The translations under genes and the position numbers were made by a program. The notes beneath the pieces were generated by a model. The model made no database searches, was not told the DNA's origin, and was given only the letters and a program-made list of their open reading frames with translations. Positions 14,301-14,436 of a DNA stretch of 33,822 nucleotides are shown piece by piece; the first letter of the stretch is position 1, and every line of letters begins with the position of its first letter. The DNA comes from Patescibacteria group bacterium (GTDB lineage: Bacteria; Patescibacteriota; Minisyncoccia; Minisyncoccales; JAHCRE01). Location of the stretch: NCBI GenBank assembly GCA_020148025.1, contig JAHCRH010000007.1, positions 1 to 33,822 of the forward strand, in the 5' to 3' direction.

Positions 14301-14436
14301 GGCAACAAGATTCAAAGTAGCTTTCGCAGGCCTATCAGCATGGTCCCTGAGTAAATATGAAGGGTGATAGGCCGAGAACGCAGGCTGCCGAATCTCGCTG
14401 GGATTCGGACAGCCGGTACTTTGAAGATTGGCTGCC
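14301..14436 (-). other. Candidate structured cis-RNA (three-way junction) in groES-groEL intergenic region; alternative: small palindromic (MITE-like) insertion
   Basis: Minus strand: ends GGCAGCCAATCTTCAAAGTA / TACTTTGAATCTTGTTGCC pair; GGCTG(t)CCGAATC/GATTCGGCAGCC; GCGTTCTCGGCCTATCA/TGATAGGCCTGCGAAAGC. Confidence 0.7.

Follow-up and report, generated by a model that had tools for sequence, protein, structure and literature searches.

The groES-groEL spacer of a Patescibacterium is filled by one copy of a widespread, probably mobile palindromic DNA repeat

The window, the whole 33,822-nucleotide stretch of DNA analysed here, carries groES followed by groEL on the minus strand (Table 1), and NCBIfam agrees with the identities that an earlier note had assigned to both genes. 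The spacer between them folds strongly. On the transcribed (minus) strand its folding energy is -57 kcal/mol against -36.4 +/- 3.8 in shuffles (z -5.44, 0/200), and when folded as single-stranded DNA it reaches a z of -6.68. The fold bears out the three-way junction that the earlier note had drawn, with a P1 stem, a P2 hairpin with a bulged U, and a P3 arm with a CCCU/AGGG cap; P3 of the groE copy also holds a 7-nt ACCAUGC bulge. Nearly the whole spacer is folded, as claimed, but the covariance-model element is slightly longer, its end lying 5 nt from the groEL ATG, so that the earlier figure of ~11 nt holds for the GGCA/TTGCC pairs and not for the model end. The element is a palindrome with terminal inverted repeats of the size (~100-150 bp) that defines the Rickettsia palindromic element (RPE) type. 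Rfam searches at gathering and permissive thresholds returned no family match for it (riboswitch, thermosensor or other), in line with the earlier view that it is no known riboswitch. An HDV-like ribozyme, considered for a GCATGGTCCC resemblance on the plus strand, was rejected on inspection, as the arms pair locally and the second pseudoknot strand is absent.

Table 1. Coordinates of the palindromic element, its parts and the adjoining genes in the window.
Feature	Position	Strand	Basis
Whole palindromic element	14295..14441	-	Covariance-model boundaries; R1 149.5 bits, R2 137.5 bits
P1 5' arm, terminal inverted repeat CGTTTGGCAGCCAATCTTCAAAGTA	14417..14441	-	Fold; 16/19 P1 pairs changed on both sides
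P2 hairpin with bulged U	14383..14414	-	Fold; 9/12 pairs changed on both sides
P2 hairpin loop CCAGCGA	14395..14401	-	Conserved phylum-wide
P3 arm: internal loop, variable cap hairpin, asymmetric bulge	14320..14381	-	Fold; 16/17 pairs changed on both sides
P3 bulge ACCATGC	14338..14344	-	Last base co-varies G/C with P2 loop
P1 3' arm, terminal inverted repeat	14295..14319	-	Fold
groES	14443..14733	-	NCBIfam; stop codon 14443-14445, 1 nt before element
groEL	12577..14289	-	NCBIfam; ATG at 14289, 5 nt after element

The groE spacer holds a genuine three-way junction whose covariation lies far above chance. Two covariance models were built, the first from 23 copies and the second from 84. Among the 23 copies, standard pairs fill 93.8% of the pair cells compared with 77.6% after shuffling, and 42 of the 50 pairs have changed on both sides. 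Covariation, which the earlier note had proposed to look for, is seen again in 61 distant copies, where both-sided change reaches 50 of 50 and standard pairs make up 92.0% (shuffled 50.7%, slid controls 41-45%), in an alignment that was fitted to the covariance model and is hence biased towards structure. Two unpaired parts are also conserved, the P2 loop as CC(A/T)GCG and the P3 bulge as ACC(A/G)(A/T)GC. Loops with AGCG or TGCG occur with bulges ending in GC, and ACCG loops with bulges ending in GG; the loop CCACCG goes with the bulge ACCATGG in seven copies, and the G/C combination is found in about 106. These matched substitutions suggest a contact between the P2 loop and the P3 bulge, with few independent changes behind it. 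A short variant of about 106-126 nt is without either motif (loci L176, L181, L183 and L172).

The genome itself (G000) is that of a Patescibacterium of 0.6 Mb, with 614,750 bases in 25 contigs. A search for further copies, which had also been proposed, yielded four by BLAST and eight with the covariance model, at unrelated loci; a genome of the same genus (G001) has six and one of a sister genus (G002) has nine. The copies in G000 adjoin housekeeping genes, such as pilB-pilC, rpsG-fusA, rpsU-yqeY, rplC-rplD and rnc-rpsP, and behind frr there is one more copy, in which the P3 arm is modified. Genomes with matches number 93 of 247 in the order, 144 of 392 in the class and 41 of 389 in the phylum, counts that were made with stricter filters and are lower bounds. 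In a motif scan of a named-genome collection the element occurs in Nealsonbacteria, Wildermuthbacteria, Azambacteria and other Patescibacteria; a motif scan of a viral collection detected it in no viral contig, and searches of phage and plasmid records were likewise negative. In the literature searched, nothing of this kind is described for Patescibacteria, and we are apparently dealing with an undescribed repeat family that has spread through these ultra-small bacteria.

Occupancy of individual sites differs between close relatives. In a same-genus genome the frr and pilB-pilC sites are empty and the spacers only a few nucleotides long. The groE site is filled in G002 and also in G197, from another family, while the groES-groEL spacer of the congener G001 does not contain the element, an outcome of the kind that the earlier note had named as refuting. 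At rnc-rpsP and rplC-rplD, the elements of same-genus genomes are 57-62% alike beside upstream genes that are 88-90% identical, indicating that different subfamilies have occupied one site. The opposite is seen at rpsH-rplF (elements 91% alike, genes 75%) and at the groE site of two genera, where the element is 87% alike and the flanking coding sequence 75-76%; judged by sequence comparison, the latter excess could reflect constraint, which would count against mobility, instead of conversion or recent transfer. At rpsU an element is nested within the arms of an older copy, and at rpsG-fusA a right-hand remnant of an older copy persists. A groE-specific cis-regulatory RNA, a riboswitch or thermosensor for groEL translation of the kind that the earlier note had thought possible, would fit the strong fold and the presence of the element at the same site in G002 and in a second family. 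It is contradicted by the same family at many unrelated loci, which the earlier note had likewise set as a refuting result, and with the congener groE spacer that lacks the element, the absence of an Rfam match and the lack of a G.U preference described below, we regard it as very improbable.

Other repeats occupy some of the same places. The G001 groE spacer contains a different palindrome, CAGCGAATAACGAA...TTCGCTATTCGTTG (L217, C5 123468-123541), and the pilB-pilC and rpsG-fusA spacers of G002 (L218, L222), sites of the element in G000, contain an unrelated repeat family, GGGGTCGG...GGGTTTTTAAAGAGCGAGCCCGAA. Some elements are centred within a larger palindrome, CACATTTGGCGGTTTT...AAAACCGCCAAATGTG (L196, L206 and L207; genomes G306 and G281). 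Two copies in G022 (L027 1385-1553, L028 1494-1665) carry an inserted 27-nt REP-like hairpin within their P2 loops.

Terminal inverted repeats are what an ordinary MITE, moved by a DDE transposase with target duplications, would display. Several copies in the Nealsonbacteria genome Unc1 and in a near relative do lie in both orientations inside a larger inverted-repeat unit flanked by 7-bp duplications. This unit, however, has outer ends of its own and occurs only in Unc1 genomes, and around 79 ordinary copies direct repeats are at chance level, leaving an ordinary MITE as an improbable identity for the element. In the Unc1-type MITE the ends are GGGTAAAGT/ACTTTACCC and the element forms the core (L074, L100, L101, L102, L104). 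No transposase-bearing copy or autonomous parent was seen among the loci collected. Y1_Tnp (PF01797) is absent from G000 and its two nearest relatives, G001 and G002, which rules out a Y1 transposase as the mobiliser in these genomes despite their 8, 6 and 9 copies.

Copies are placed non-randomly with respect to genes. Within the order, 74 copies in co-directional gene pairs lie in sense orientation and 5 in antisense, at a median of 3.5 nt from the upstream stop and 45 nt from the next start; outside the order, orientation is nearly random (13 +E+ vs 9 -E-). Since the empty spacers of congeners (pilB-pilC, frr) are only a few nucleotides long, an insert tolerated there has to lie right next to the stop codon, and such sites account for part of the proximity to stops but not for the sense polarity. 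The same gene pairs recur in several families, namely rpsG-fusA, dnaK-dnaJ, grpE-dnaK, groES-groEL, rplC-rplD and rpsH-rplF. A role in stop-codon recoding was rejected because TAA, TAG and TGA each precede copies. An AT-rich repeat, TTCGTATATTCGTAnnATTCGTAATTCGTAGG, is often found 3' of the element before the next start (L095 near 5375; right flanks of L012, L023, L024, L027, L028 and L103), and at some loci it ends in a ribosome-binding-like GTAGG(AGG).

A functional RNA is expected to tolerate G.U pairs and to avoid A.C. Among 3746 pair cells of 76 non-redundant copies we counted 75 G.U and 101 A.C, and among 2794 cells of an independent distant set of 58 copies, 44 and 71; combined, A.C exceeds G.U by 172 to 119 (p=0.002). 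The tRNAs at the same loci have 6.5% G.U, and their zero A.C may reflect the bracketing of the program. With G.U no commoner than A.C, pairing is not kept base by base through selection on the sense RNA and, as far as pair counts can tell, appears to be maintained at the DNA level. Template switching makes imperfect palindromes perfect and leads to concerted evolution of the arms (discussed in PMC6649704), and movement of copies with well-paired arms would lead to the same result.

The element also resides within proteins. In mnmA it is found in frame after ATGHYAR in three families, one of the same order, one of another order and one elsewhere in the phylum, and in one genome it is in frame within tgt; the MnmA and Tgt proteins that carry it give NCBIfam matches above cut-off. 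Congeners of the first mnmA case have mnmA without the insert, and one congener mnmA retains just the two element ends, in frame. Stop codons on the sense strand number 2.96 per element, about half the 5.35 expected from composition. In-frame residence inside genes is a hallmark of Rickettsia palindromic elements (PMC10969869, PMC2229807).

These observations bear on whether the family could be a generic intercistronic RNA element, in which a fold behind the stop sets the mRNA stability, processing or translational coupling of individual cistrons in highly expressed operons and any copy suffices. The sense placement just past stops, the recurrence of gene pairs across families and the conservation of loop and bulge sequences through the phylum agree with such a role. 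The slight A.C excess on the sense strand, the nearly random orientation outside the order, the empty sites in same-genus genomes and the copies in frame within enzymes do not, and we consider this explanation unlikely.

We conclude that the spacer holds a single copy of a mobile but non-autonomous palindromic DNA repeat of ~145 bp, RPE/MITE-like and widespread in Patescibacteria, to which we assign a probability of roughly 0.8. The conclusion follows from the many copies at unrelated loci, presence and absence at given sites, turnover of occupants, nesting, in-frame residence and strict Watson-Crick co-evolution of the arms, and it favours the mobile palindromic element that the earlier note had listed as its main alternative. 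Complementarity of the arms would be preserved in the DNA through the mobility of well-paired copies, through template-switch correction, or through both. The conserved fold and unpaired motifs suggest recognition by a trans-acting enzyme, which may mobilise the element by recognising its single strand in the folded state, the contact between P2 loop and P3 bulge included. In G000 the insertion breaks neither groES nor groEL, and a fold closed at P1 would hold the groES stop near the groEL start, which may explain why it is tolerated. By bringing stop and start together, the folded RNA could influence groEL expression, and any effect on the GroES:GroEL ratio would then be incidental or have been co-opted later. 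Counting against mobility, the sense placement and recurring gene pairs could mean function, and neither a transposase or autonomous parent among the loci collected nor target duplication above chance was found.

A broader proposal is that these are phylum-wide mobile elements that move as a folded single strand of DNA, a three-way junction with a tertiary contact between loop and bulge, and are placed behind stops by a novel recombinase, with the fold in compact operons keeping stop and start codons adjacent and so preserving translation coupling across the insert; we offer this tentatively and think it more doubtful than not. The family adds a mobile, protein-tolerated palindrome to a very large phylum known mostly from genomes, together with a reusable covariance model, and extends RPE-like selfish DNA beyond the Rickettsiales, including into tRNA-modification enzymes. 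It also cautions that overwhelming covariation with no G.U preference can be the signature of a DNA palindrome instead of an RNA regulator, and a fold that starts 1 nt past one stop and finishes 5 nt short of the next start offers a testable case of how dense operons absorb insertions.

Several known systems share features with the element. Like integron attC sites, it follows stop codons with fixed polarity and conserves folded DNA structure over sequence, and it has conserved extrahelical bases and a slight G.T excess on the antisense strand, so that one may think of a recombination site that folds as a single strand and is mobilised by a tyrosine recombinase. The RYYYAAC...GTTRRRY core sites of attC are nevertheless not seen, as the GGCAAC/GTTGCC ends are not invariant (GTTGCC varies to ACTACC or CTATTG), and its neighbours are housekeeping operons in place of cassette arrays; we judge an attC-like site quite improbable. 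REP/BIME sequences, associated with RAYT (Y1), are likewise repetitive palindromes behind genes, but the element is larger and three-armed, and the Y1 gene is absent as noted above. ERIC/IRU, Correia/NEMIS and MITE-like repeats resemble it in being ~100-200 bp long, non-coding, intergenic and structured in transcripts. ERIC is found close to the 3' ends of genes, and NEMIS is able to alter mRNA decay (PMC10969869). These repeats make target duplications (PMC2229807), unlike the element, and differ from it in architecture. The closest likeness by description, in unrelated taxa, is to the RPEs of Rickettsia, also found in Wolbachia, which are 105-146 bp long with terminal inverted repeats, form several families per genome, and have intergenic and in-frame genic copies with no transposase or certain target duplication known (PMC2229807, PMC10969869). 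Size, palindromic form and the two kinds of residence are shared. The element belongs to a different phylum, however, and has a three-way junction with a loop-bulge contact where RPEs form a long stem-loop, and most of its copies lie in sense behind stop codons. What is new with respect to the RPE/MITE-like class is the combination of an apparent lack of target duplication with the three-way junction, the covarying loop-bulge contact and the sense placement just past stops.
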